Source: Antitrichia curtipendula
Taxonomy: Eukaryota; Streptophyta; Bryopsida; Hypnales; Leucodontaceae
NCBI GenBank assembly: GCA_951230915.1
Contig: OX579636.1
Location: 32,361,567-32,425,566, forward strand
Reading direction: 5' to 3'
Length of the DNA stretch: 64,000 bases
Shown in pieces: positions 4,244 through 64,000 of this stretch. The translations under genes were made by a program, and so were the position numbers. The notes below the pieces were generated by a model. The model was not told the DNA's origin. It saw only the letters and a list, made by a program, of their open reading frames with translations, and did no database searches. Position 1 is the stretch's first letter. Every line of letters starts with the position of its first letter.

Positions 4244-4783
4244 TTAACCTCTAAAATTCCACGGCCTTTTTTCCATCAAAAAACACTCAAAATTGCCATT
4301 TCTATTACAAAGGGAAAAAACTTTAAAATTTTTTTTTTTTGTATATCTAACCATAGAATCTTGCACCAAACTAGTATAAAAGTGCATGGAAGAAATCTCA
4401 AAAACTTTGAAAATGTATATTTGCATTTAAAGTGAAGAAAATAAGTTTTTTTTAAAGAAGATGTTAGATTGCTTGGAAAACAAGATTGTCCATAATTTTC
4501 TCATTATTAGTTCAAATAGAATGATTCAAAGCTTCAGATATAGACAAAAATGTAATATTTGAGAAAAGATTTAAAAAATAAAGTTGCTTTTTGGACTTAG
4601 GATGGCATAAATTTTGCTCCTAGACATCGATTGAAAAAAATTTATATTTCCACAATTGAAAGCTAATCTAATTTTGTATCTTCAAGAAAAATTTCAAAAA
4701 AAATCATGTTAAAAATTGAGATTATACAAGCCTACCCAAAATTCCAAGAGTCCCCCATAGGGACTTTGGGACTTTAGGGTTAA
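4244..4783. repeat. Family A TIR element (copy 2)
   Basis: Starts TTAACCTCTAAAATTCCACG, then ACACTCAAAATTGCC; ends GGGACTTTAGGGTTAA. Internal blocks match the copies at 5.2, 7.3, 32.4, 45.4 and 46.6 kb. Non-coding. Confidence 0.75.
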
Positions 4784-5205
4784 CCGCCCATGCAAATTGG
4801 TAGCAAAAATCAATCAATCATTAACATGTAAGATGTTTTTAGCTTTGGATTTTATAGTGGATCTCAAATACATGTGAGACCTAATTGCAATTATAATAGT
4901 TCAAGAATAGTTTAATCCCTAAATGTCCCAAAGCCTTTTTTGAGCTTCTTGAAATTTACTTTAAATTGGACAAAAAAACAATAATTTTATAAATTTTATA
5001 AGTTTGTTTCTATTATAATCGTACAAATTCAAACTAGAAATGTTAAAGATCCTATTGAAAAAGAAATCACATCAATATCACTTATAGATTGAAAGATTAT
5101 AATGTTTGATTATGAGGGTGTTAAAGCTATGAAAGTGATTTGAAGTCTTTCAATCCTCTTTTTACATGTCAAATCTAGAAAGTTGGTTAACAAAAAAATA
5201 TGAGG

Positions 5206-5797
5206 TTAACCCCTAAAACCCCGAGGGTGTTTTCTGCCAAAAAACACTCAAAACTACCACTTCTGTTGTATTCACTTAAGGAAATCAATTTTTTGTTTTT
5301 TTGGAAATTTAACCATAATATCTTGTACTTAACTTGTCTGAGATCATGTATTAAAAATTTCATCAAATTTGACTGTACGGATTGGAAGATATTAGCATTC
5401 AAAGTTGAACAAAAAGTTTTTTTTCAAGAAGATGCTTAAATTGCCTGAAAAACTAAGATTGTCCATAACTTTCTTATCCCTAGTCCAAATAGAATGAATC
5501 AAAGCTTCACGTATAGGTAAGAACATAATCTTTTAGGGAAAAAACTCAAAAAAAATTATTTTGACTTTTTGGAATTTTTTTTGGGCTGCCCGCCAATATC
5601 TATTTCTTGCTCATTGTGCCATAACTTTTTCATCCGGCATCCGATTGAAACAAAAATTATATATCCACAAAGCTCTTGCAAAGCTACACAACCTCAAAAA
5701 ATCTCAAAAAAATTCACTTCAAATTGAGACAATAGGAACCTATCCGGACCCAAATTGTCCCCCGAGGGGACAAACGGGGTTTTATGGGTTTTAGGGC
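5206..5797. repeat. Family A TIR element (copy 3)
   Basis: Starts TTAACCCCTAAAACCCCGAG and ends with CCCCGAGGGGACAAACGGGG, then TTTTAGGG. Lies about 420 bp after copy 2 in the same orientation. Confidence 0.75.
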
Positions 5798-38816: not shown

Positions 38817-40032
38817 GTGAAAATAATAGTTTTTATTGTCCAAAATTTCCATACTTTTCATTTCTCAAGTATTTACACTTATCCACAAGGATTTGTAATG
38901 ATTAAATCTTGTACTTGAAATAATGGATCTTTTAAAAAAAAATAATAATTTGATAATAAATTGTTGATTTATTCAAATAACAAATTTAAACAACCAATTT
39001 TTAAAGTTATACATATTGGGCCCTCAACATTAATAATATATGCATTTATTTTTGTTTGGACATAATCAATATTTGGATTGATTTTTATATTAAAAAGGAT
39101 TTTTAAATATTTTGAATTTTGAATATTATACAAAATATAAAAGTGTTCAAATTTTAGTAGAAAATTCATTACTTTATCATGTAATTATGTAATTACATGA
39201 TTTTCTTGGAATCAAATCCTGGGGAGGGCACTCCCTGCGTTTTAGCAACCCACGTGCGGCGAAAAAAGTAATACATATTATACATCTTAAAATTAAATTT
39301 TTTTTCTAAAAAAAAGATTATGGATAGATTTTGCTACTTTAAAAGTTTATGTTTTGAATTATTGGTATTTTTTTATGCTAATAGTAATTAGTTATAAATT
39401 TTTTTAAGAAAAAAGATACATTGTAAAGCTGAAAATAACTTTCACCCCTCTATATTATATAAGAAAAAAAAATTTGAAAAATTAAAAAAAAAATTCTATA
39501 GAGTAGCTTTCTATTGAAAGCTTATTTTGGTTGAATATTGATGCAATAGTCACCTTCATGTGAGCTCTATAAATATTTTAGTTGGAGAACATGCCATTTT
39601 AGTTCATTTTTCAACCCTTTCTAGACAATATATCTTATGTTATTTGGAATTGAAATTTTTGTCAATAGGAACCTTTAGTCATTGTTAAACAAACCTCAAA
39701 ATTTTAGGATGAAATTCACTACAACAAAACCAGTGTTTTATGACTGCAAAATATGACTGCAATGAGTCATAAAATCGAAAAATATGACTGGTCGCAGAAA
39801 TCACTGTAGATGACTGCAACATGACTGACATGAGTCATTACCGACGAGTCGCTTCGGACATTAGTCATATTGGCAGTCATATTTTTTGGGGGGTATAATT
39901 ATCCATAATTAGCCGTATTTTGCCAACAAGGCGTATACTTTGACTATCTTTGAGGGCTTGATTTTTTTTTGAGTTGTCCGGGCAAACAAAAATAAATCCT
40001 ACGTGGCATGTGACTCCATATAGTCATTTTTT

Positions 40033-40378
40033 TGGCTGATGTGGAATATGACTGCAGTCAGTCATATTTTGGTTGACGTGGAATATGATTGCGGTCAATC
40101 ATATTTTGGCTGACGTGGAATATGACTGCAATCAATCATATTTTATCTAATATGGCATATGACTGCAATCAATCATATTTTATCTAATATGACATATGAC
40201 TGCGATCAGTTATATTTTGGTTGACGTGAAATATGATTGCGGTCAGTCATATTTTGGCTAATGTGGCATATGATTGCGGTCAGTCATATTTTTTGTAGAT
40301 GTGGAATATGACTTTTGTGAGTCATATTTTACTAATGTGAAATATGAATCTTATGAGTCATATTTTGGTTGATGTGGT
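40033..40378. repeat. About 45-bp subterminal repeats in the CACTA element
   Basis: Seven to eight imperfect units of about 45 bp, each holding ATATGA(C/T)TGC followed by an inverted TCATATTTT and a linker like GG(T/C)TGACGTGG. Each unit can fold on itself. They are likely transposase-binding repeats. Confidence 0.8.
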
Positions 40379-40522: not shown

Positions 40523-41043
40523 ACTCTATGTAGTTAAAAATGAATACATATGACTTTTGAGATATATAAGAGATAATCATATTAGAAAGGGAGAATGTAA
40601 GAAGGAAAACAACTCTCTTCATTGACATTTATTAGTCACCAATACAAAACATATATACCACAATGAATCATTTACAAAATCCAATAAGGCCTATATTCCT
40701 TACAAAAATATGAAGATGACTCTATTGGGTTGCAAGTAGCCTCCAATGATTTTGTTTCAACTTTTGGTGCCTGCATAAACAATTAAAGAAATGGGAGGTT
40801 AATTTTAGTGAATAAACAACAAAGTTCAACCTTCAAAGGCTTACAACAACATAAAATATGTAGCTCAAGTTTAGGGTAGGGAAAATAAGAATGGTGATGG
40901 AGAAAACAAGAAGAAAAAATAGAGAAGTACTAAGAGAAAACAACAAGCAAGAGTTAAGATGCAACAAAAACAAGAAGCAACAATTGAGACACAACAAAAA
41001 ACAACAAACAAGAGTTAAGATGCAACAAGAAACAACAAGAAAC

Positions 41044-41232
41044 AACTAAGACACAACAAGAAACAACTAAGACACAACAAGAAACAACTAAGACACAACA
41101 AGAAACAACTAAGACACAACAAGAAACAACTAAGACACAACAAGAAACAACTAAGACACAACAAGAAACAACTAAGACACAACAAGAAACAACTAAGACA
41201 CAACAAGAAACAACTAAGACACAACAAGAAAC
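41044..41232. repeat. 21-bp tandem repeat, nine units
   Basis: Nine almost perfect copies of a 21-bp unit containing ACAACTAAGACACAACAAG lie in a longer purine/CAA-rich segment (about 40860-41500) of degenerate versions. Because 21 is divisible by three, every frame stays open, which creates spurious low-complexity open frames. Confidence 0.95.
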
Positions 41233-41514
41233 AACAAGAAACAAGAGTTAAGATGCAACAAAAAGACACAAGAAGCAAGAATTAAAAAGCAACAAGAAGA
41301 AACAAAAAACAAGAACTAAGAAAAAGAAAGAGCTAAAATGCTAGAGAAAGAAAGAGTTTAGATGCAACAAGAAACAAGAAGCATGATTAGAACTAAAAAG
41401 CAACAAGAAATAAGAGTTAAGATGCAACGAAAGACAACAACTAAGAAGCAAAAAATAAGAAGCAATAACAAGTATGAACTAAGAGACAATAAAAGGCAAG
41501 GAAAAAAGGCCAAA

Positions 41515-41700
41515 AGAAGTGGCGGCTAGGGTTTCAAGACCCTAAAAAGTGGCGGCTAGGGTTTTAAAACCCTAAAAAAGTGGTGGCTAGGGTTTCAAAA
41601 CCCTAAAAAGTGGCGGCTAGGGTTTCAAAATTCTAAAAAAGTGGCGGCTAGGTTTCAAAATCCTAAAAAATAGGTGAGTAGGATTTCAAAATCTTAAACA
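41515..41700. repeat. About 32-bp tandem array with a telomere-like motif in each unit
   Basis: Five to six units of about 31-33 bp, consensus AAAAGTGGCGGCTAGGGTTT followed by CAAAACCCT. The end of each unit gives AAAACCCTAAAA, a telo-box-like match to the plant telomere repeat; the last two units have decayed. Confidence 0.88.
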
Positions 41701-42135
41701 ATGGCTTGTCTAATTTTTTTTTGAATTGCCCGTATTTTTCTTGGGTTGCCCAAAACAAAAAAAATGTCACTACTATGGAAATATGACTGACAATATGACT
41801 TAGTGTTCCCCAAACATGTTCCCTATGTTCCCTATGAAATACTTTGGTGTTCCTAATGGTTGTATAGTGTATATTTTGTGAAGTAGAAGGTTCAAAAATC
41901 ACTGACAGCCATATTTTGCAGTCATATTTTTCCTCAAGGTGTTGACCTTCAAGAATATGACTACAACCAGTCGTCAGTCATCCTCAGTCATATTTTTGCA
42001 GTCATAAAATATTCGTTTTTTTGTAGTGATTATAGTTTATTCAAAAGTAAATAGGGGGTCAAAAACTCACTCCGTCACACGTGGGTACCTCAAATGTAGT
42101 GAGAGTGACCTCCCCTAGAATCAAATTCATTGATA

Positions 42136-51150: not shown

Positions 51151-52572
51151 AGACAAAGACACAACACGTGAACAAAACACATCATTTACTCCACAAAATT
51201 TCAAGAACTTACCATACATTGTTGCTGTTACTTTGCTATATGTTTTATACATGGAATCCATAGTTCATAAACCTAGGTTCAAGCAAAGAGAAAAAACAAA
51301 AACATAAGAGTGCAACAAAGAGAACTAAGCACAAAATACAACACAGATAGAAAGCAAAAACTCATACTTGTATATATGTTTTATACGATGGAATCTTGAA
51401 ATCATAGATTCAAATAAGCAAAGACAAAAAACAAATACAAAACAATGCAACAAAGAGAACTAAACATAGAATAGACTAGAGACAAACCTAAACACTAAAC
51501 AAAAGAAAAACAAAAATGAAAAGACATGAAGTAGAAACTAGCAACATTAACATTCATAAACAATTGTGGTCAACGACATCAACAACAATTTCAATCACTA
51601 GAACCCAATGACATTTTGATATACTTAGCTATAGAAAAGGTTCCTATACAAGGAAGTTAGTGAAGCCCCCCCAAAAGTAAAAGCAAATTAGATTCTACAT
51701 GTAAAGAAGACTATAGCTAAAAAAAATGAAAAACTAAAATTAAACCAACTTGTCCAGAAGATAGACATGTGCAAAGTCCCCGTCAAAACAAACAAACAAA
51801 ACTGAAGTGCAAACCCTTAAGCATGTATGATGCACCCATGACAATATTCATCCAATACAATTGTAAATATATAAAGTTCATGGTTGCCTTCAACATGTTG
51901 CCTATACTACATAGGAATGCACAACTTTTGCATATACTACATCAACAATTAGGAAAAAAATGCACCAAGCTAAGAGGCTAAATAACCCGTTCAAACTTGT
52001 TACTTGCGGGCTAAAAGGATCACCTACAAAAGTGAAGAGCTTGCCAATTTGATCCATGTTCGACAAAAACCTCAGAAGGTACCCAATCACAACACAAAAT
52101 CTCCTGGAGCTCCTCCAATTTGCCAACGCTTAGATTTGAAAGGGAGGAAATGTGGAGATGATTCGATATCAATGCCTAAAACTGCCACAATTTTGAGAAA
52201 AAACCCACGTTGTGGTCAAATTGGTCTAGCACAAACGCATTGCCATTGAATCTGCACATATAGGACCCTACACCCTAAATTGAAGGAAAAGAATCCTCGT
52301 CTTAAATCAATAGTTCAAAAAATAAAAATAAAAATAAAAATCTTAAATCTTCACTCTAATGCAAAGATCAACCCATATGTGAACAAATGTCTACATAGCT
52401 TACTTGTAACTAAAGCACATACCTCATAGAAAATCCTAAACTAAAGACCTAGATATATATCTGCAGCTTATGGAAAAAAACCTAAACCAAAATGTGAGCA
52501 TTCATGGGAGAATGCCACATTTAACTACTTCTGGACTTTAGCGGGAATTCTGGACTTTGTGAAGGTTTAGGG
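51151..52572. other. No gene seen
   Basis: A-rich sequence with two diverged copies of a phrase around AAACAAAAAC, then AACAAAGAGAACTAA (51.3 and 51.45 kb). Open frames at 51.77-52.25 kb have no recognisable features. Confidence 0.4.
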
Positions 52573-55008
52573 CATCGTAGGATATCCTGATCTTATGTAA
52601 ACTGAGGCCACAATGCCTTTTGATGGAGGCTTAAACTGCCTTAGGATGTGGAGTCATCGGGAGATTGTTGATGCAGTGGAATTGTATCCCTTTTGGATTT
52701 AAAGTGTAGGAACAAATTGATGCATTCGTATTTAGGGTTGGCTTTAAATATGCGACATTACAGATCGGGAGATGTCACGACATATTTTGCAGAGCATTAC
52801 CCAAGAAGAAAGATGTGATGAGGCAAAACATTCATGCAGTTACGGACATTTGATAAGTTGTAATAACAGTGAAATACAAAAGGTGGATTCACCAATTCAT
52901 AATCATCTTTTACTTTTGGGTGAAACGAATAGGGCAAACCCACTACTTGAAAACACAATACAAAACAGCCAAAGCAATGACTTTGCACAACCCAAGTGAT
53001 AACAAGCGAAAAGGACTTTATAATCATTTGGATGCAACAAATACGTGCCATTCAAATCAAATGGGTGCCAATCAAATAAGTGCCACTAGTTCCATGTGAA
53101 CTTATGCTTATTTTTGGGCCCACGACCAATCAAAGCGCGGTCCTATAACGTGCGCACATTGCCAATCTGAAGTATCTACATCATCCCTCACATGCAACGC
53201 CGGTTGAAGTAAATGCGGACGTGCCCAATTCAGAGGATCGAGAACAAGCATTACGACAGTGTCATTCAAGAGTACCCTGCGCGTCCGAGGATTACTTGAA
53301 AGAGTCCTCAGTAGTGCATGACGCCGCGGATATAGTTGGTTCTTGCGTGGATTGTCGGATCCAGAAAAGAAAAGGAACCTTGAAAGAATCTCCAGCGGTA
53401 GAATACGTCGAAGGAGAACAGCTAATGTCGAAGGTTGCACTGCCGCCCACAAGCCACAGTGAGTTTCTTCAACAAGATATCGCAGAAGATCGTGGAAGCT
53501 AGCCCGTATTTGTATATTCTGTGGAAGATCCTCCACACCGCCCTTAACGCAGAGATCCCCAGTCAGTACAAGGAGCATCGCCTTCTACAAAGACCAAGTA
53601 CATCTCAGCACATAGAAATGATGTAAAGACAGAAGAGGACGTCGAATGATCGTGAGATATCACGATCAATATGCATTACTACAGAACTGCGTACCGAATA
53701 GAACTGGCGGATTAGAAAAGAGAACATCAAGTGAAAATCTCATTTGCAGATGAGCTTAGGAAAGTTAATATTACGTGTAGAATGTGACTGCAGTCCAAAA
53801 ATGCAAGACTTGTGAGGCATGCAGATAAATGATTCTTTTAAACACAGAAAGTGGAATTAGGCATAAATAATATGAGATCCAAAAATTAATACAAAAGAAA
53901 AGAAGGATCTGCATTACATTGCAGCGAAAGAATTGCAAAGTTCAAAGTATCCATTAGAGGCAAAGTCACACGACCATGAGATCTCTCGATCAAGCCATAG
54001 AGACAAGATTACGTAAACAAATTCAACTCAAGACTTCAACGGTTTTAGGGTGAAGTCTTGCTGACAATAGGAGGAACACGCCCAACAAATTGCAGAAGCA
54101 CAACTACAACTATCATCCCCTATTACATAAACCAAAACGGAGGACATTACGGGGACGAAAGACGCACAACTGTTTGTACTATCGGACATGTACATGGTGA
54201 TCCATTAAATTCCTTGGACGGCAAGAGGGAAGATCGTGCGATCTCCTGATTGAACTAAGCAGTTGAACATTATGAGGCCCACACTAATAAAATCTACTGA
54301 AGATACCGCTTCCCAGCATTCCCCCATCTTTGCGAGACATGATGGGACCTTACCATCGTCTTCAGACGTGATGGAGATTGCTGGAGTGTAGGTCCCCCAC
54401 TCTGCTCCTTCACTTAGTCTTCATGTTTCTCTTTGCTCCATTCTCTTCATTTATCTCTTTACTTGCTTTAATTTCTTAATGCCATATGTCATGGCTTCAA
54501 TCTTGCTTACCATTCTAAATGCAATGATCCATCAGTTGTTTCGGAGAAACAGAAATAAAATACTTCAGAGTTAAATACAATTTCATTATCCCCAGCAACA
54601 TGATATGCGATTTAACAAAAAGAAGAAGAGAGACTGACATTGTGCACAATGAGTACGACAACACATGTCAGTTAAAATCGCCCCTACAGTCCATCGTGAG
54701 ATCTCACGACAGGAAATGAACTTGCATACTATACAAACACATCTTAGTATATTCACGCACGACGATAATTATGGAGGTCAAAATTATCCAATTGAAATCA
54801 TAACTCTAACTCACAAATGGATTTCACATATAACCATACAATAATATTTACAATGTGCCTTACAAAATGAGTAAAATTTAAAATGACTCTTAAGAAATGG
54901 GAAAGTCAAGTATTTAAAAAATGCATTTACAAAATTCACAGTGAGTTCAAGAGTATTAAACAATAAATAATGAAGTATGATAGAATGAGATCGTGATATC
55001 TCCGGATC
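52573..55008. repeat. Palindrome cluster, 3' flank of the ParB/methyltransferase-like gene
   Basis: Eight 20-bp copies of the degenerate palindrome with consensus CATCGTGGGATCCCACGATG begin at 52573, 52654 (weak), 52763, 53648, 53972, 54232, 54692 and 54989. The best is at 54692, with a perfect 16-bp core TCGTGAGATCTCACGA; the 53648 copy has perfect 8-bp arms GATCGTGA/TCACGATC. No copy needs a gap to align, and the sequence between copies is not repeated, so this is not an ordinary tandem array. No convincing gene lies in this stretch apart from the doubtful HAD-like fragment at 53.1-53.6 kb. Confidence 0.8.
53108..53578 (-). pseudogene. Possible second, degenerate NIF/HAD-like fragment
   Basis: An open frame of 156 codons lies downstream of the large ParB/methyltransferase-like gene on the same strand. 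It contains LLVLTGDLCVKGGV, then FHDLLRYLVEETHCGLWAAVQ, STLAVLLRRILP, RFLFFSGSD, ALLRTLSSN, RRVLLNDTVVMLVLDPLNW. The order and spacing (initial strand-loop, GLWAA in place of the W-S-S strand, a late LL.ND... strand) resemble the NIF/FCP1 domain found at 55.0-55.7 kb. The nucleophile motif is scrambled (TGDLCV), so it would be inactive. It may be a decayed duplicate of that domain or an unrelated open frame; the call is tentative. Confidence 0.3.
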
Positions 55009-55037
55009 CAGTCCCACGCAGAAGATATAGACGACAT

Positions 55038-55699
55038 CTAAGTTACACCCTTCAATATGTCACACCCTGGTCTGGTCAACGGGATCTCCGGATGCTGACC
55101 ATGAGGAAGCGGGTGGGCTCTAACATACGCTGGGACAGCTTCCTGTGACTTGAAAAGTTGGTTGAGATAAGGAAACAGCTTCCCCATTAAGTAATCATCT
55201 CTCATGTCACCATCCCAAGTTGTGGGGAAGATGGCGCTATGACAGTCATTCTGGAGGTTCTTTAATGGGTCGTCATCGATGAGTAGAAGATTTTCCTGTG
55301 TCGGCAAATTCAGCTTACGGGTGAAGTGTGACAGATCCTTTAGAAAGTAAGGCCTGTCCGGACAACGACGGTCTCTGTAAGACGAGAGTGTGCAGTCCTC
55401 CTGCATGAGAACAGGCACATCCTTCGGCTTCACAACCGCCCCGGACAGCATCTGGTTCAAAGCGAATGTCACATTTTGTTTTGTCATACTGCTCTAGAAT
55501 GCGAGCTTAACAGTCCTATGCACCCAGTCCAGGAAGTGTGGGCAACTCGGTCGCACAGCATAGCGACGTCTATTACGATCATTGAAAGTCTTGTGAACTA
55601 GAACTCCATTCAGGTCAAAGATCACAAAATACGGCCGCGGTTCTACCTTATTCAACGGCTTCCGCACCTCTTCACGAGAGACTTCGGTGACTCGACAAC
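55038..55699 (-). pseudogene. C-terminal NIF/FCP1-type HAD domain exon, one nonsense codon
   Basis: The exon starts after the acceptor TTTTCAGCAG and continues phase 1 from the preceding exon. It reads YFVIFDLNGVLVHKT, then RPSCPHFLDWVHRTVKLAF, a TAG at 55494-55496, SSMTKQNVTFALNQML, RPYFLKDLSHFTRKL, LLLIDDDPLKNLQND and a short tail to the stop at 55038. This is the layout of NLI-interacting-factor/FCP1-like phosphatases. The first aspartate of DxDx(T/V) is present and the second is Asn (DLNG), a form I associate with plant HAD-like proteins of uncertain activity. The TAG replaces the Trp of the usual F/W-W-S-S motif, by a single G-to-A change. Conservation on both sides of the stop suggests recent loss, a sequencing error, or truncation of the expressed protein. 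Confidence 0.6.
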
Positions 55700-56494
55700 C
55701 TGCTGAAAATCCGACAAACAGCGTGTTAGAGTCGAGTTAAGAATCCGTTCTCAAGTATAAGCATTATAAAAATTGGTTAACTTCTTACCTAGAATCCGGG
55801 GTCGGATGTATTTTTGGGGAGACCCTTCTTTGCTCTTGTCGACACCCTGAAATGCTTTCTTGCCCTCATCACCGTCCCGTTGCCGATTTCCTATCTTGTC
55901 CTGAACCATTGGCCCTTTTCCCCTCTCGTCGCCGCGATTTTCCTCTTTCCCCCTATCGTCGCCAAAAATTGGCCCCTTCCCCTCTTCCATGTCGTCGTTG
56001 CTCTCTTGCTCTTCCTCATCGCCTTCCTCGTTGAATAGTTGATCCATTGGATCCCCTCCTTCCAGTCCTGCAAGCGGCCCATTCTGAAATGCCCAGTTAA
56101 ACAATGGTTTGTACAGGAATCGGTGCACTTGCCTTACGGCTTGTGTATGCTGTTTCTTCTTTTGAAGGTCAATAGGATCCTTAGGGTCGATGATTCCGAA
56201 CGCAATTAAATCATGACTCGGAGATTCAGCAAGTGATTTGACCGCATCCACGACGCACAATTTCATTATGTCTGCGGCCTCATATGGTAAGGCCTCCAGC
56301 ACTTCTTCGTTAATTCCCTCACCGTTTCCAGGAGCCACTTCACTTGACACCTCCAGTGCAACAGTGGAGGCGACAGAAGCAATATCCACAGTCACCTTCG
56401 CTCTAAATCTCGGACTCATGGGTACCAAGTCAACGAGGGTGTCCTCCTGTTCGTCCACCGTTATTCCCATGAGTAGGAGACCTCACGAAGCGAC

Positions 56495-57624
56495 CATCGT
56501 GATATCCCCCGATATAGAAGTTCCTAACCCTACCAGATGTCCGTCAATATCCTCGCCTGCTGCTTGATCAACCTGCGCCATGACGACCTCCGTTTCCTGG
56601 ACGATCAGGGGATCCCACGATGCCTGTGTGCCCGCCCCAACCCCCTTATCACGGTTTCCAGAGCCTGGTGTAGGGGCATCTGTCGCGGGAACCTCCAATT
56701 CAAGTCTGCTGGCATCAATCCCCGTGAGGTCTCCACCAAGAGTAAGCTCTGGGCACCCTTCAGTTGATTGGCGGCCGGTGCTTTCATCTGAGCTTTCTAG
56801 ACCCTTCATTATGTCCAACACAGTCCTTGTGTTCATCGTGGGATCCCCTGATGGACCTGGAATTCTTCTGACCTCCGTCTGATTCATCCCTTGGGCAGGT
56901 TCTATCCCATCGGGCAAATTCCTGATAACTCCATCGCCGCTAGTTGTCTGCGGCACCTCCTCGTCGGGAACGCCTAAATCGACAGTCTCAAGAGTTGACG
57001 GCGGGCAAGCACATGTCAAAAGTATGCCTGCCGCGTGTGATGCTTCGGGATTCACAATCCCAGTTGACATCTGCGGATCTTGTTCCCCCTCGGCGACGTC
57101 CCTGTTCGGATTCGCTTTGGGACTGACCACCTTCCGCGTCTGTACTGCGGCTGCACTACCTTGCCGTCGTCGCTTCGCAGCCTTCTTCCCAGCAGTATTT
57201 CTTCCACAGCCAAGATACTTGGCCAGATTACTTCCAGTCTTCCTTCTGGATGTCCTTGGGTTCTCGAGCGGAGACCCTGTAACCTCATTGCCTGTTGAAC
57301 AGTCGGACAGGAAATGCACTTGTCGTCCAGCTCCTTCCGGCTGAGGAGCTTTCTGTGGCTACTTGGCTACATCTCCCAACCGACTTGGTGCTGGCGGTTC
57401 AGAATGATGCTCCTGTTGCTCGACCATATTGCTTGGACCTGTTGGAGGCGACTGAACATTGGGGTCAGTGACGTTTATGTCCTCCGACCGTCCTGCAGGA
57501 GTTCTTGAAGGTGCATCTTCCTCTTGCGTCGAATCCAAAAACAAATCACTTGGACATTTAGAATCCCAATCAAACACCAGAAATCACTAATGTGAGCTTC
57601 CCAAGATCAGGGGATCTCACGATG
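56495..57624. repeat. Palindrome copies in the linker region of the gene
   Basis: Four copies begin at 56495 (CATCGTGATATCCCCCGATA), 56603, 56834 and 57605. The 57605 copy lies in the predicted intron between the third and fourth exons. The other three lie in what reads as an open frame, where they encode short Asp/Pro-containing strings such as SGDITM and SGDPTM. The copy at 56495 sits next to the TGA at 56483. Either short unrecognised introns contain these copies or they are tolerated in a disordered linker. Confidence 0.75.
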
Positions 57625-58039
57625 GTTCAGCAATTAACGCACATTAACCTTGTTGTGATCAATCAACCTTGTTCCTGTACGTTGCTGGGATTTGTCGATG
57701 ACCTCATTTACTATATTGTCCTCATGCTTGTCATGGGAATCTAGAGGATTGGATGGGTTGATTTCGTCATTATCAGCCTCCATGTCCGGTTGATCCTCGG
57801 CCTCGCCGATGCCTTCTGGAACTGGAGGAGCTGCCGCGGGTGCTTCCTTGTCGTCCCAAATCTGTTTGGCGACGACCTCACTTGCCATCACAGCTTCAGC
57901 GGAATGCACTACCTCCAGCACTTGAACACCTCCTAAATTCTGAAATACACCAATCAGTTGTTAGTGTGCCTGGAACTGGCAGGACCAAAACATTGCGTTG
58001 CTCGAAATGAAAGGAAGATTGTGGAGCCCAAGACCTTAC

Positions 58040-59401
58040 CAATCCCAGGTAGGTGAACTCGGGACCGCCGTTGACATTCACGAGGACAAGGTCGGTGTAT
58101 GCGAGTCCTTTGAATATCTCCTCCGCCGTCTTGATCTTTAGGTACGGCACATGCGGTCGTCGCCAATACGGGTGGACATCCTTCATGTCTTGCGATCTGT
58201 AAGTCTGCTTCAGATCAGTTAGTCCAGGGAAGTAGGCTTTGAAGGAACTGTGCTTGGTTCTGTGAGGGATGTGCTCGAAGATGAAGACGAGAAACACGTT
58301 GAACCCCTCCCCGGCCGGTGACATAGGGAAGAAGTCGTCCGGCCTAGCCATGTAAGTCACAACGTGCCAGTCCCACAACCTTGCTCTCATCTGCTCATCT
58401 CTTTTCTCAAGATAACCCGTAATAGTGTGGAATCCCTCAGCATCTGTGATGAAGACGGCGCCAGCCTGCGGTAAGACAGTCTTGTCCTTAGGGTCGTAGA
58501 ACTCCAAAGCATTGAAGAGTCTGTTCAGTTTTCCAAACTCCAACATCTTCGTACGGGATCCATAGGGTGCCTCCTCAAACATGAACCAGATGTAAAGGTG
58601 ACGCTTCTTCTTTCCCCGCCATGCCTTGACGTCTAGGGCCGACAAAGTTTTGCTGATATCCCAGATTCTCTCGTCCATCATTTTGCACAGATAGTGCTTC
58701 GAGAAATCCTGTACATGCGCCTGTGTCACTTCATCCTCCACAGCGGACTTGAAGAACGACTCCCATATATTAATGACGAATTCGAGGAGGTCCTTTGGGT
58801 CAAACGTCTTGTTCAATCCCTTTGTCCTGCCTTCCAGCCACTTCTTCCCAGCAGGGACTTCCATGGCCTTGTTCACCCACAAATCTAATTCGTCGCTTCC
58901 GATGTCCTTCTCGGTTGCGAAGTTCTCCCAAGTGGATTCCGGATATGGTACATACTCCATCTTCCTCATGGGCAACAATTGATTCTTGTAGTGTGCCAAG
59001 AGCTTGTTCTTCATGGCCCTCACCAGCCTCAATCTTGCACCAGCGGTATTGAGAGGGATGATTTTGAAATTTTGCTGGCCACTCTTCTGACTTGTCATCC
59101 TCGAACTCTTTACACAGAGGATGTTGGCTTCCACTTGATCCGCAAGGTAGTTTATGTCCTCTGATCGAAGTCCATAGAGCGTCTTGAAGTGGTTCTGCGT
59201 TAGGGGTTTTTGCTCCTGCTTCCCGCATACATCGACCAGGCCCGTTCCATCGGGAAGATATCCTTTCATGAATTTCTCCTCAATGTCGATCCACCTCTTT
59301 ACGTCGGCGTCGTCCTCCAGGAAGAGCATGGGTATTCGCAGTTCCGACATATCAACAGTCTTAACACCCACAAAGATTGTCACCAAGCACGGATGAAATG
59401 C
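58040..59401 (-). CDS. Exon with degenerate beta-class DNA methyltransferase-like domain
   Basis: The exon runs from the acceptor TGTTGTGTAG to the donor GTAAGGTCT and is 454 codons long with no stop. N-terminal parts (IPMLFLEDDADVKRWIDIEE, then LTQNHFKTLYGLRSEDI) are unrecognised. From about residue 270 the layout follows N4/N6 amino-methyltransferases of the beta class (motif IV, target region, motif X, motif I). YIWFMFEEAPYGSR stands for the (D/S)PPY region near 58570; AVFITDAEGFHTI follows; the HPYWRRP element is near 58165; DLVLVNVNGGPEFT begins motif I near 58070. The expected catalytic D/S-P-P-Y is E-A-P-Y, and the motif I aspartate and glycines are partly lost. The protein may therefore be a non-catalytic DNA reader. 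This is by-eye motif reading; a remote profile match would be needed for certainty. Confidence 0.5.
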
Positions 59402-59462
59402 CTACACAACAGAGTCAAAGTGAGTACCCAATGATCAGGTTTACACCATGAATGGAATATGA

Positions 59463-59838
59463 AGTCGTGAGATCCGACGATCATCGATAGTTACAGTAAA
59501 ATAAATCGGCATAGCGTCAGTTGTGTGGGATAGACTAGAAAACCATCAGGAGAATATTACAATGACGGCATTGTGAAGGAAATGGAAGTAGAACACAAAC
59601 ATGGACATCGTGGGATCACATGATTGATATTCCGATAGTTGATCCGAAAAGTCAAGAACAGGAATCCACAATACAATTCCTAGAAATGAAGCCAGAAACC
59701 AAATCACACAGACCTTATTTCTGTCCACAGAGGATTTGAGAATGCTTTGCCGGAGCAATGGTGGAACCCACAGTGATTTCATTACAATTTCGTCTGCTTA
59801 TGTTTGTAAGTACAAGTCGATCATGGGATCCCACGATG
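59463..59838. repeat. Three intronic palindrome copies
   Basis: Copies begin at 59463, 59606 and 59819, all within the 494-bp intron (59402-59895) between the ParB-like and methyltransferase-like exons. The third, GATCATGGGATCCCACGATG, differs from the consensus only at the first and fifth positions. None lies in either flanking exon. Confidence 0.8.
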
Positions 59839-59895
59839 ACTACTAAGTGTTCCATTGAGATGTAGAGTCAACATAAATATAAATTGGAATCTTAC

Positions 59896-61219
59896 ATTAT
59901 ATTCTTGCGTGTGAGTTCTCCCCATTATGGCGGGCTGCGGACTTCCCATACTGCGCCATTTCGTTCTTGCGTACAAGAGCTGCTTGGTGAAATTCATCTC
60001 CTTCTGTTCACCAGCGAGATTCTGGTTCAGTGCCCGCGAGAAGTGCAGTAGGTCTCCGTGGTTGACCTTGGGTGTCCAGACTGGAATGATGTAGAACGTA
60101 GACGCGAGCTTTTTGTCGACCTCGGGAATTTCCTTAGCATCAATCAGGTTCTTGAAGGCCTTGACAGTGTGCTGTCCCCCAATAATGAAGTATTGCGTCT
60201 TCGGGTCTTCAAAGATTTCTGGTTTTGGTGGTGTCTTCTCGTAGTGCGTCACCATGCCATTTGGACCGTATGGGCCAACTTTAAGTGGGAGGACTATAAT
60301 CACTCTGCTCTTTGAGTCATACTCTAGCGTGATACATGCCTTCCTCGTGATTCTGTCCAGCCGTTTAGGATCGATGGCCCTGTATACGAGCAGTGCTTTT
60401 GATGCCTCGTGCAGGCACTTCATGTTCACGCGGATCAGCTCTTCATTTTTGTCACAAAGGGCTTTTCTTCCCCATTTGTAGAGGCCACTGAAGGATTTCT
60501 CGTACAATGTCTTCATTGCCATCATTTGCTCCGGTCGCATCTTCTTGATCTCTGCTTCCCCTAGAGCGACAACCTCGTGCAGCAAAAGCGGAGTCTCAGC
60601 TTTCTTCCTCTTTCCGGCTGAACCCTGTCCGACATCATCGTCATCGCCTGGAGCTCCAACCACTGACTTCCTCTTCTTGGTCTTCTTGGCCGGTGACGGC
60701 GTGGGAGCATCCTCTTCGACTGCCTTGGAGGCAGCACTCGATTCAGCCAAATATTCCTGAATGATATCCCATTGATTCTTCATTTCTTGAGGCTTCCAAG
60801 AAGGCTTCGCGAGGTCCTTGCACATCAAATGCGCCTTGGCTGTCATGGTCTCACAGAGTCCCATGTTCATCGTCTCGTAGTCGAGGATGAAGCCGTAGGT
60901 AATGGACTCAGTGGATAGGGGTACCTTCTCTTCTATGACAAGAAGCGCTGTTTTGTTGTCAAGTCCTTGCACTTCCACGACCTTGAGACCGCCTGTTCCA
61001 TGTCCCTTGCCGTTGTTCAGGATAGAGGGAAGAATCAAAGCTGATCCATCACTCTCAACCTTCCAGACCAGGCCCCATTCCGTAACGCTTTGGTCACATC
61101 GGAATATAGCTCCAGGTTTATGTGGACCCTTGTACTTGAAGTCGCGGATCCAGGAGTTGACAAAGTGACTAAGCTTCCTCGGTGAACACTCTTCCGGACC
61201 GTCATCGAATTGATGTTCT
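59896..61219 (-). CDS. Exon with ParB-like domain
   Basis: This exon opens after an AG acceptor near 61220 and ends at AAT before the donor GTAAGATT (59895-59888), leaving 441 whole codons with no stop. The first part (SHFVNSWIRDF, then FRCDQSVTEWGLVWKVESD) is unrecognised. A serine/lysine-rich stretch with AKKTKKRK and GKRKK looks like a nuclear-localisation signal in a disordered linker. The C-terminal third has the ParB-like core: a beta strand (ACITLEYD), a long insertion, YFIIGGQHTVKAFKNLI at about 60190-60140, FYIIPVW, and HFSRALNQNL. In ParB/Srx-fold proteins the G-x-H/R-R-x-x-A loop binds a nucleotide; here Thr replaces the usual Arg. The exon joins the next in phase 0 across a 494-bp intron that holds three copies of the palindrome. 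Confidence 0.6.
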
Positions 61220-61312
61220 CTGCAGCATTGTAGACAGTGATGTTAGTGAGGGAGATGGAAAATCAATAGTCTTGCAATGCTAATTCTCTCTATATGCTTG
61301 TATTACAAGCAC

Positions 61313-61992
61313 GATCGTGGGATATCACGATTGTTGATTTTATGACATTTCCTTGAGACGTAAGACATCTGTGATTCATTCTAGTTAGCAGTCGTTATGA
61401 CGCCTACTCCTTGCTTTGGGACAAAATAGAACGGGATATCGCCTAACTAACTGGACGGTGGAGTGTAGGGCTATCACGAGAGCTTCTAGATCGTAGGATA
61501 TCACGATGGCATAGACATCGTAGGAAATCACGATGACCTCTGAAGTATGTCGGTCATGCTTTTGGGATAGTTCACGGCCGCCTTCTATTAATGATTTTCA
61601 CAGGGTATTGTCTACATCGATCATGAGATCCCACGATGAGTAATCTTTGAGGCCTATTCACCTGTTCGTCTGTGTTCGATGAGGCGGCACACAATGATGC
61701 ATCGTGATGTCCCACGATGTCGGATTTCGTTCCTTCCTCATTTGTACTTGAGGTTTGGTTCGCATTTCCTTGGAGTCTCTACGACATTCATCGGGGGATC
61801 CCACGATGTGGAGTATTCTACTCCAGCGAGAACGGTCCTTGGGACATAATTAGGCTCTTCCATGAGCCTTAATCGTGGGATCCCACGATGGACAGTCTTC
61901 TAATATCTTGAAATTATAACCTATCGTGATATCTCACAATGATTTTCAGTGCCAACTGACTAAGAAATGGCGCATCGTGGGATCCCACGATG
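61313..61992. repeat. Dense palindrome array upstream of the ParB-like exon
   Basis: Nine copies in 680 bp begin at 61313, 61489, 61516, 61619, 61700, 61789, 61871, 61922 and 61973. The last is a perfect 20-bp palindrome, CATCGTGGGATCCCACGATG. Start-to-start spacing is 176, 27, 103, 81, 89, 82, 51 and 51 bp. The DNA between copies is unique. This is the densest part of the cluster and lies just 5' of the first recognised exon, in an intron or promoter region. The pattern resembles a set of binding sites for a dimeric DNA-binding protein. Confidence 0.85.
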
Positions 61993-62714
61993 CACGGGTT
62001 TAGGGGTTCAAAGCACGGTAATAAGGTGGGATACTTATTACTGTGTATTGTTCTACTGATTTGCACTACCGTAACTCTCGACAGGGTTTGTAACAAAGAG
62101 TAAAGAGAGTGCAGAGTACCCTAAATCACAGGACAACAACAACAGCCTTCACCCTAGTTTTAATTGCACTGTTCTAAAGCTTCGCATTGCATGCACGTAA
62201 AGGAAATGAGGTTTGCATTTAGAAACTTACGGGGCGTTCCAATCTACTTGACCTATTGTATGCAAAGCTGAAGTCCCTGCCATCGTACCGACAGCTTGCC
62301 CGAGTCCGGAATGCAATACAACTGTACAAAATTCGACGGATGCCAAAAAAAAGTCATACAATCCAATCAGTACAACAGAATGTGAAGACTAGTTTCGACA
62401 ACAAAACAATATTTTCCAGATGCATTGGACTATCTTACTGCCATTCAAGCCTGATCACATTCAGCACAAAACTAGAAATTGCAACCTTGAACGACGACAC
62501 ATTCAGGCCAATTGAAACCGAAAAGTCACGATACTAGGAAATTAATGCAGAACATGCCTAGTATCGATTTCAAAACAAGCAATGCCATGACTGTCTTACT
62601 ACATGCATCATTCGAGAACTGAGAACATTCAAAATAATAATGTAAATGGGGGATTTCAGTCGGGAAGGGATGCAAGCTGGAAAGTGGAAAGGATAATTAG
62701 GAGCTCGAGTATAA
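61993..62714. other. Region between the palindrome array and the putative 62.7-63.1 kb exons
   Basis: No palindromes and no recognisable coding sequence. It may be an intron or promoter of either minus-strand gene. Confidence 0.35.
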
Positions 62715-63106
62715 TTATGAAGACTGTCTAACGCCGCGCACTTGAATCGGTAGTTCTCTCCCTCTAGAAATGAAGCCAGTCTGTACAAATGGAAATAAAA
62801 AACTCAAACAATGAACGTCGGCGGAAGAATGTCCAGGAAACTCACCTCTGGAGTCAAGTTCGCGCACACTTTCGCCACAACAAATCCGGTGCGCAGCACA
62901 CGAAACGTCTCCTTCGGCAAATGCTTGGCCGCCAACTTCCACCACCTTGCACGCCCGTCTTCACTAGCAAATGCTGGGTCGCCAAAACGAGGAATCTCAC
63001 GCGTTCGTCTCCACCAGCGACAGCTCCCACCCACAGACTGGAAACGGAATTCGATCGCCTCCCTCCCCTCCGTAAATGACGACGCCCCATGCGCAACCGC
63101 CTTCAA
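62715..63106 (-). CDS. Putative small gene, two exons, unrecognised product
   Basis: An 87-codon open exon begins with ATG at 63106 and ends at a good donor, AGAG|GTGAGTTTCC (exon end 62846). A matching AG acceptor (TTTGTACAG) leads to a short exon, 62780-62715, ending in a stop; 108 residues. The protein is basic and contains IPRFGDPAFASEDGRARWWK, then AAKHLPKETFRVL. I recognise no family. The phase does not join it simply to the ParB-like exon at 61.2 kb, though it could be that gene's 5' end through an exon I did not find. It is GC-rich compared with the surroundings. Confidence 0.28.
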
Positions 63107-63134
63107 TGCTCCGCCAACAACTCCTGGACACTCA

Positions 63135-63222
63135 CGGCGTCAAACACAATCAAACTCGCGGCGTCAAGCACAATCAAACTCGCCCCGTCAAGCACAATTG
63201 AAATCGCGGCGTCAAACACTCA
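63135..63222. repeat. 24-bp tandem repeat, about 3.7 units
   Basis: Units start CGGCGTCAAACACAATCAAA and end CTCG. The second and third carry small changes and the fourth is partial. It lies within the possible divergent promoter region at 63.1-63.8 kb. Confidence 0.9.
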
Positions 63223-63389
63223 TGAATCGGTCAAGTTTGCGCACACTCCGCAGCGGAACACAAGCTCTGCAGGGAATACAAAAGGGAACTCTCCAGCTGC
63301 ACACGACATCGGGTGAAGGGGGAGAGCACTCGATATCGTGTGCACTGGGGAAGGAAAACCCAGCTCCCCCTGTCGACGTGGCGCTATCA

Positions 63390-63496
63390 GGGGAACACTG
63401 GAGCTGCAAATTCCGCTGTCCCTCAATTCAGCGGAATTGAAGGACAGCAGAATTGGATTGGTAGAGGGACAGCGGAACACTGGAGCTGCAAATTTC
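63390..63496. repeat. Short direct repeat of about 23 bp
   Basis: GGAACACTGGAGCTGCAAAT occurs at about 63392 and again at about 63474. The intervening DNA contains overlapping inverted pieces (CCGCTGTCCC, GGACAGCGG). Confidence 0.8.
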
Positions 63497-63834
63497 CACT
63501 TACAAAGTCAAGAGCCCCACGCCCTCCCTCCTTGTGGTCGGAGCAGCGCGGAATTCGAGAGTTCATTCCACTTCCAAAGTGTAAAACCGCACGTACTCCA
63601 CGTCTTGATTGCGGCTCGGCAATCTAGAACGCATCCAACCAACATTTGAAAAAAATGAACGCTTGAAAATTTGAAAACTCACGGCGAGAATCCACAGCTC
63701 TTGAATTCCAGTGCAGGTGTTTTATAACCCGAAACGAACCTTCAGCTTCTCCTTTTCACTTGCACACGTGAACAAGTGGAGCACGCTGCGGAATAGTGGA
63801 GTCGGTGTCTACCGGTGTAGGCAACGAGATTGGA

Positions 63835-63875
63835 ATGGAGGCAGACGATGCTTTGACCGGGCCATTATTCACGAG
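63835..63875 (+). CDS. Putative first coding exon of a gene running off the right edge
   Basis: An ATG at 63835 opens MEADDALTGPLFTR and stops at a strong donor, GAG|GTAAGC (63876). A TATA-like TTTATAA lies near 63720, about 115 bp upstream, with GC-rich 5'-UTR-like sequence between. The rest of the gene is outside the window, so no product can be named. Its upstream region (63.1-63.8 kb) would be shared with the minus-strand exon starting at 63106. Confidence 0.35.
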
Positions 63876-64000
63876 GTAAGCAATGCATTCCTATCAACTA
63901 CAGTGGAATTTCGAGCCTGAGTGTTTCATCAGTCGAATGCATGCCACTGCAATTTCGTGAAACTCTTCAAGCGCGTGTAGATTCATAGTGCAGAAGAGTC

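Follow-up and report, generated by a model that had tools for sequence, protein, structure and literature searches.

A gene carried by a large moss DNA transposon and the subfamily-specific palindrome that its protein may recognise

Why should a moss genome carry a gene that seems to join a ParB-like part, a methyltransferase-like part and a phosphatase domain? We asked this of a 64,000-nucleotide stretch of the 400-Mb genome of Antitrichia curtipendula (contig OX579636.1, positions 32,361,567 to 32,425,566, G000:C4:32361567-32425566; this whole stretch is called the window below), whose minus strand holds such a gene. An initial annotation of the stretch had read it as a ParB-methyltransferase of bacterial type that had entered a plant nuclear genome. 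Comparison with other copies showed that the gene is cargo, an accessory gene other than the transposase gene, of a large DNA transposon that is present in many copies and has terminal inverted repeats (TIRs) and diverged subfamilies, and the same element carries a recurrent palindrome that the gene product may recognise.

The extent of the element was read from 11 further stretches taken from around palindrome sites; nine hold a copy of the element, and two hold palindrome arrays only. The nine copies align to the window at 94–97% identity. In copy C2b, 21,181 bases (∼21 kb) are enclosed by 32-bp TIRs, and the same terminal ends were found in the other copies read. Target-site duplications (TSDs) of 4 bp were present in all seven copies with both ends read (C2b TTAA, C3b TTGT, C5a AATT, C1b CCAT, window TCTC, C4a TTTT and C3a AGTT; a single end was found for C2a, and C1a and C3c are outside this count). 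The window copy spans position 52512 to ∼69808 (C4:32431374), beyond the window edge, and measures 17.3 kb versus 21.18 kb in C2b. A genome search with exon 2 returned 533 first-look candidates. The 95 that were scored comprise 44 at 88–100% identity (window included), one at 70% and 50 at 46–57%. When the genome was searched with P0001, a protein of another public source that is 39% identical to exon 3 (and one of three exon 3 relatives, P0001–P0003), 86 of 454 candidates were scored and all were 41–45% identical. As exons 2 and 3 adjoin in several loci, their layout is conserved; IMG/VR scans found no relative.

The capture of a bacterial gene as a single host gene, as the initial annotation had it, is contradicted by the TIRs, the TSDs and the many copies, and a host gene of bacterial origin is ruled out as the immediate explanation by this setting. 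That annotation's history in full, in which a bacterial ParB-methyltransferase was taken up as a plant host gene and then acquired introns and a HAD domain, could appeal to the NIF domain that is present and to a second repeat family (family B, described below) whose layout resembles phage ParB-methyltransferases. However, the window gene is enclosed by TIRs and TSDs, exists in dozens of copies and has no detectable sequence similarity to phage ParB-methyltransferases, and we give this history hardly any credence.

On the strand opposite to the accessory gene, and divergent to it towards the far end of the element, lies a gene matching DUF7869 (Pfam, E 6.5e-36). It was found in all four copies examined, broken in C3a, and its protein has a weak DDE_Tnp_ISL3 match (E 0.089); it is the likely candidate for the transposase of the element. 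No open-access paper containing 'DUF7869' was found, and none on such elements was among the listed titles and abstract beginnings, Repbase, subscription journals and unlisted papers being outside that scope. Of the changes relative to the majority, 193 of 253 in exon 2 and 212 of 303 in exon 3 (with C3c counted) are C to T or G to A, a pattern expected for decaying methylated repeats. The window copy is probably defunct.

A search of the window with ATCGTGGGATCCCACGAT, allowing up to 5 mismatches, returned 25 sites, 23 of them in the 11.5 kb of the element and two in the remaining 52.5 kb. The palindrome of the window copy is TCGTGRGATCYCACGA, and its 23 sites compare with a mean of 0.62 (maximum 4) in dinucleotide shuffles of the element part. 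Twenty of the 23 are non-coding, three fall in the linker exon and none in exons 2–4. The full copy C2b has 39 sites, and exact sites number 70 genome-wide versus 0 for the reversed control. Many variants keep a GATC core, and several window sites read GATATC.

The palindrome was next followed into diverged subfamilies. For 11 diverged loci we fetched 3.1 kb around exon 3; as these were picked among stop-free relatives, the fact that they are open is no evidence in its own right. Outside exon 3, variants were TCCGGAGATCTCCGGA-like in L062, TCGGGAGATTTCCCGA in L060 and TCTGGAGATCTCCAGA in L056, and a repeat search around exon 3 found no such palindrome in L052, L053 or L059. The generic pattern TCNNGRGATNYCNNGA, with up to 2 mismatches, occurred 31 times across the 19.1 kb that lie outside exon 3 and take in parts of exons 2 and 4, versus 7.3 in shuffled sequence (maximum 14) and 4–12 for five other patterns of the same form. 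This count is partly circular, since four of the counted loci (three of the 11 plus the window) had served to define the pattern. Inside exon 3 it had 7 sites in 15.0 kb. Because the pattern was derived from the same loci, the next 3 kb upstream was later fetched for eight of the 11 for a separate count over the whole 3 kb, part of exon 2 included in seven of the eight. There, seven stretches held 6–10 sites and L068 held 2, with shuffles at a mean of 0.9–1.3 and a maximum of 4–5; most sites in L065 lack GATC (GAAC and others). For the comparison of variants, which was cut at base 2300 and so leaves out most of exon 2, the upstream DNA and the exon 3 region had the same most frequent inner dinucleotide in six of eight loci (L060, L057, L052, L061, L054 and L056). 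The similarity of the profiles between the exon 3 region and the upstream DNA was reached by 2 of 10,000 pairing permutations, a p-value that is optimistic because some of the loci are sisters. Together, these data show that palindromes of the form TCNNGRGATCYCNNGA occur in most of the loci studied, chiefly outside the main exons, and that the variable inner dinucleotide differs by subfamily and is consistent from one part of a locus to another.

Similar features have been described for VANC, the accessory protein of the VANDAL (MULE) DNA transposons of Arabidopsis, whose short motifs lie in non-coding regions and introns, differ between subfamilies and often form tandem arrays (passages of PMC5735166 and PMC10398659). 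In the moss element, too, the motif consists of the element's own non-coding repeats and is subfamily-specific, one of the eight subfamilies tested upstream being without sites. As a non-coding and intronic, subfamily-specific motif with tandem arrays is the VANC/VANDAL pattern, we propose that the protein binds a specific sequence and so shields or opens the element that encodes it. We see about an even chance that this accessory protein of a TIR transposon recognises its own palindrome and most likely acts against the silencing of its own element. The protein would bind, as a dimer, to its own subfamily's palindrome, with the methyltransferase-like and possibly the ParB-like parts serving DNA recognition and not catalysis, whereas the NIF/HAD part may act on, or recruit, something at chromatin. 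The element would thereby be freed from silencing, as VANC does for VANDAL, and the DUF7869 transposase could be made. Unlike VANC, the moss system has a palindrome of 16–18 bp, a DUF7869 transposase candidate and 4-bp TSDs, and anti-silencing is here a proposal only.

Two further systems invite comparison. In TET/JBP-carrying DNA transposons of fungi, the carried protein is likewise thought to counter silencing by DNA methylation, a role that is only proposed here, but those proteins are enzymes acting on 5-methylcytosine (passages of PMC12730594), whereas the moss protein lacks the amino-methyltransferase motif IV. Target duplications of 4 bp are shared with Sola transposons; those of Sola2 are AT-rich (a passage of PMC3627910), whereas the moss TSDs are not all so (CCAT, TCTC).

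Several observations weigh against the proposed self-recognition. To the partial circularity of the first count comes the relatedness of sister subfamilies (L057/L060 and L052/L056/L062), which are not independent; L062 was mispredicted, with CG near exon 3 and TG upstream; and the L059/L068 subfamily has no upstream site above chance (L059 none). A Pfam scan of the exons found no domain of the VANC type, DUF1985. Selection on the palindromes was not evident among close copies, as there was no consistent slowing: differences per base, sites versus surroundings, were 0.031 versus 0.027 in intron 1 and 0.051 versus 0.035 in intron 2, thus faster, and 0.020 versus 0.027 3′ of the gene, thus slower. 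Finally, sites lie less than ∼100 bases from both ends of C2b (positions 54 and 21098 of 21181), where they could serve transposition. Separately, the L059/L068 subfamily may use another motif.

Short elements also bear on how the sites are read. One of them has terminal repeats related to those of the window family and a TSD of CAAT, is filled with 28-bp tandem arrays of the window-family palindrome, and is nested in family B in three copies (L003:∼1287–1918, L020:∼4623–5422 and L023:∼5135–5766). Another, a 241-bp miniature inverted-repeat transposable element (L014:∼1658–1898), has window-family terminal repeats, a TSD of TGGT and one palindrome, and is nested in the full copy C3a. That such elements with the same or related ends keep sites is counted in favour of self-recognition but would also suit the main rival explanation, in which the palindromes belong to the transposition machinery and the accessory protein or the transposase assembles a complex there, with no role in silencing. 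TnpA of En/Spm binds sites to assemble a transposition complex in this manner. Sites throughout the element, including those near either C2b end, are also consistent with this rival, but the densest cluster lies in intron 1, far from the ends, and would be unneeded for end recognition; we consider the rival unlikely, though deserving of weight. The satellite-like look of the 28-bp arrays and the lack of extra conservation among close copies would instead fit palindromes that are no more than a tandem or foldback repeat in decay, carried along by the element with no protein to bind them. Against such a repeat speak the dispersed single sites, their absence from exons 2–4 and the presence of variants that are specific to a lineage and concordant from one region of a locus to the next, and we regard it as distinctly improbable.

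If the accessory protein does read the palindrome, one genome would hold many natural pairs of protein and site, and the rules by which a DNA-binding protein changes its specificity could be derived by sequence comparison and checked in vitro. More tentatively, and at somewhat less than an even chance, the superfamily, probably with hundreds of loci in this genome, may represent a self-recognition system unrelated to VANC, built from a catalytically dead binder derived from ParB/methyltransferase and a pseudo-phosphatase, in which the inner two bases act as a subfamily code and lineages coexist without cross-activation. Recognition of the palindrome by the accessory protein would also suggest that transposons evolved sequence-specific self-recognition more than once, with unrelated proteins, and would make it possible to test directly how transposon lineages evade silencing while neighbouring ones stay silent.

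How sound is the gene itself? The peptides quoted in the initial annotation are present on the minus strand where it had placed them, and the two junctions that it proposed, 59896/59401 and 58040/57939, have GT..AG borders and keep the phase. Phase also fits from exon 4 to 5 (57649/57520) and from exon 5 to 6 (55789/55699), and a first exon joins 61219 in phase across a ∼1-kb intron, with a GT donor in seven and AT in three of ten copies (window included), so that all six predicted exons join in phase. In the window copy, exons 1–4 are open, with 441 codons in exon 2 and 454 in exon 3; among the nine other copies, exon 2 is stop-free in six and exon 3 in two. Between copies, dN/dS was 0.42 for exon 2 and 0.36 for exon 3 (nine rows, C3c left out, stop codons skipped). 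The reading is not due to chance, as dN/dS is 0.36–0.42 and 35 of the 86 scored relatives are stop-free in exon 3. Near the end of exon 3, VN(V/I)NGG is kept in all 13 sequences that reach that far. In P0001, the frame continues past exon 3 at residues 471–498 with SWDPSMDR, as TCGTGGGATCCCTCGATGGATCG-like DNA would encode, and the palindrome is thus probably present in the DNA of P0001, whose source is other than this genome. Downstream, from 57520 to 55038, phase is kept but the window copy has three stops (57361–57359, 56485–56483 and 55496–55494), because of which the NIF domain is not openly fused in this copy.

NIF is the sole domain of the window gene that passes a family cut-off. Against the Pfam threshold of 21.8 bits, PF03031 matches the window in a C-terminal piece above it (2.9e-5, 24.2 bits) and an N-terminal piece below it (E 0.0028, 17.8 bits), and matches C2b at E 1.5e-9 and 38.2 bits. 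The NIF exon is stop-free in five of the seven copies where it was read, and in C2b the stretch is open for 173 residues before a stop. Motif I of HAD proteins usually reads DxDx(T/V); here, DLNGVLV is found in all seven of the ten copies where it was read, which departs from this consensus.

The searches by profile that the initial annotation had suggested for ParBc, N6_N4_Mtase and NIF thus recovered NIF and neither of the others. For ParB, there was no Pfam match in the exons, pairwise scores were at chance and model comparison gave nothing; PHROG 1033 matched weakly (E 0.13) at residues 337–369, and the ParB-like identity of exon 2 is unproven. For exon 3, a methyltransferase fold is suggested by its structural model, which is poor and aligns best to N6/N4 methyltransferases. 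The window gene had no methyltransferase match in Pfam, PHROGs, NCBIfam or PDB, and hhalign with 4 and then 15 effective rows gave no match to methyltransferases or phage ParB-methyltransferases. Pairwise shuffle tests against methyltransferases reached a best z of 2.35 in 24 comparisons and 2.39 in a second set of 24, and a fold search of the exon 3 model against viral models returned nothing at E ≤ 0.001. In the exon 3 relative P0003, residues 132–179 match the Pfam family of an ASH2L-like winged helix below threshold (E 0.006).

Motif IV of beta-class amino-methyltransferases has the consensus (D/N/S)PP(Y/F/W). A DPPY-like motif IV is absent in all 15 aligned sequences, window included, indicating that the protein is not an active N4/N6 enzyme. 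At the DPPY position, the nine own copies have EAPY or EASY, and as these residues are not conserved we reject the view of EAPY as a degenerate DPPY. Overall, the initial interpretation is partly supported. An active DNA methyltransferase that marks the element's own palindromes, at adenine or at N4 of cytosine, could account for the GATC retained in many variants and for the resemblance of the exon 3 model, and a methyltransferase X-I-II region is recognisable in family B. Nonetheless, besides the missing motif IV and the lack of any profile match, GATC is missing from several window sites (GATATC) and from most L065 sites, and we regard such an enzyme as very improbable.

Family B is a second repeated unit, of which L003, L020 and L023 are copies (95–97%). 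Its minus-strand gene (L020:1–4255) includes WDGNHRLQAW, VDLIIAEYPDG and KPWRGAKEKSQ...VADMTTSTGSSIIAAHSSNRHILALESD, and is not similar in sequence to the window gene. Its X-I-II region scored z 3.6–9.5 against 11 of 12 phage methyltransferases and 0.6 against the twelfth, with controls at ≤1.9 for 14 other phage proteins and ≤2.9 for the reversed query. The motif-IV part reached z 2.8 at most among the 12, the ParB-like part (the DGNHRLQA exon) was at chance, and the sole Pfam match, N6_N4_Mtase, was below cut-off (E 0.045). Family B carries a palindrome of its own, GCCGTTAACGGC, arranged in tandem repeats of 97 bp, with 7 and 8 sites versus 0.05–0.1 in shuffled sequence; none was found in the window-family copy C2b. 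By its sequence, family B lends indirect support to the layout: as in bacterial and phage ParB-methyltransferases (for example L039 and L040), a possible ParB-like part precedes a methyltransferase-like part, more clearly so in family B, whereas the window gene has no detectable similarity to these proteins and no DPPY and has an additional NIF domain and introns.

Table 1. Features of the accessory gene, its palindromes and the enclosing transposon, in window positions.
Feature	Position	Strand	Basis
Predicted exon 1 (MAGTSALHTIGQVDWNAP), ATG 62283	62231..62283	-	Phase fit; seen in 10/10 copies
Predicted exon 2 (GGQHTVKA; ParB-like proposed)	59896..61219	-	Open frame; 95 scored genome matches
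Predicted exon 3 (VN(V/I)NGG at end; methyltransferase-like fold suggested)	58040..59401	-	Open frame; relatives P0001-P0003, L052-L062; fold comparison
Predicted exon 4 (NLGGVQVLEVV...)	57649..57939	-	Donor 57648 picked by phase; 57642 fits too
Predicted exon 5, linker; 2 in-frame stops	55789..57520	-	Acceptor picked by phase among several AG
Predicted exon 6, NIF/FCP-type HAD domain; 1 in-frame stop	55038..55699	-	PF03031 match and phase
Palindrome cluster of intron 1, nine sites: 61314, 61490, 61517, 61620, 61701, 61790, 61872, 61923, 61974	61314..61991		
Palindromes of intron 2: 59464, 59607, 59820	59464..59837		
Palindromes of linker exon (56496, 56604, 56835) and intron site 57606	56496..57623		
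Palindromes 3′ of gene: 52574, 52764, 53649, 53973, 54233, 54693, 54990	52574..55007		
Part of transposon in window	52512..64000	-	Alignment to 9 copies, terminal repeats, TSD
TSD TCTC, right side (left one outside window)	52508..52511		
Terminal inverted repeat, element 3′ end	52512..52543	-	32-bp inverted match in C2b, same end in window
Point at which ∼4.1 kb of other copies, including tandem-repeat block, is missing from window copy	63394..63474		

The tandem-repeat block of C2b, C3a, C3b and others is made of units of ∼175–180 bp whose number varies by copy, and it falls in the part missing from the window copy at 63394–63474. Outside the element, tandem-repeat arrays lie in the window at 40022–40377, 40970–41329 and 41513–41705.

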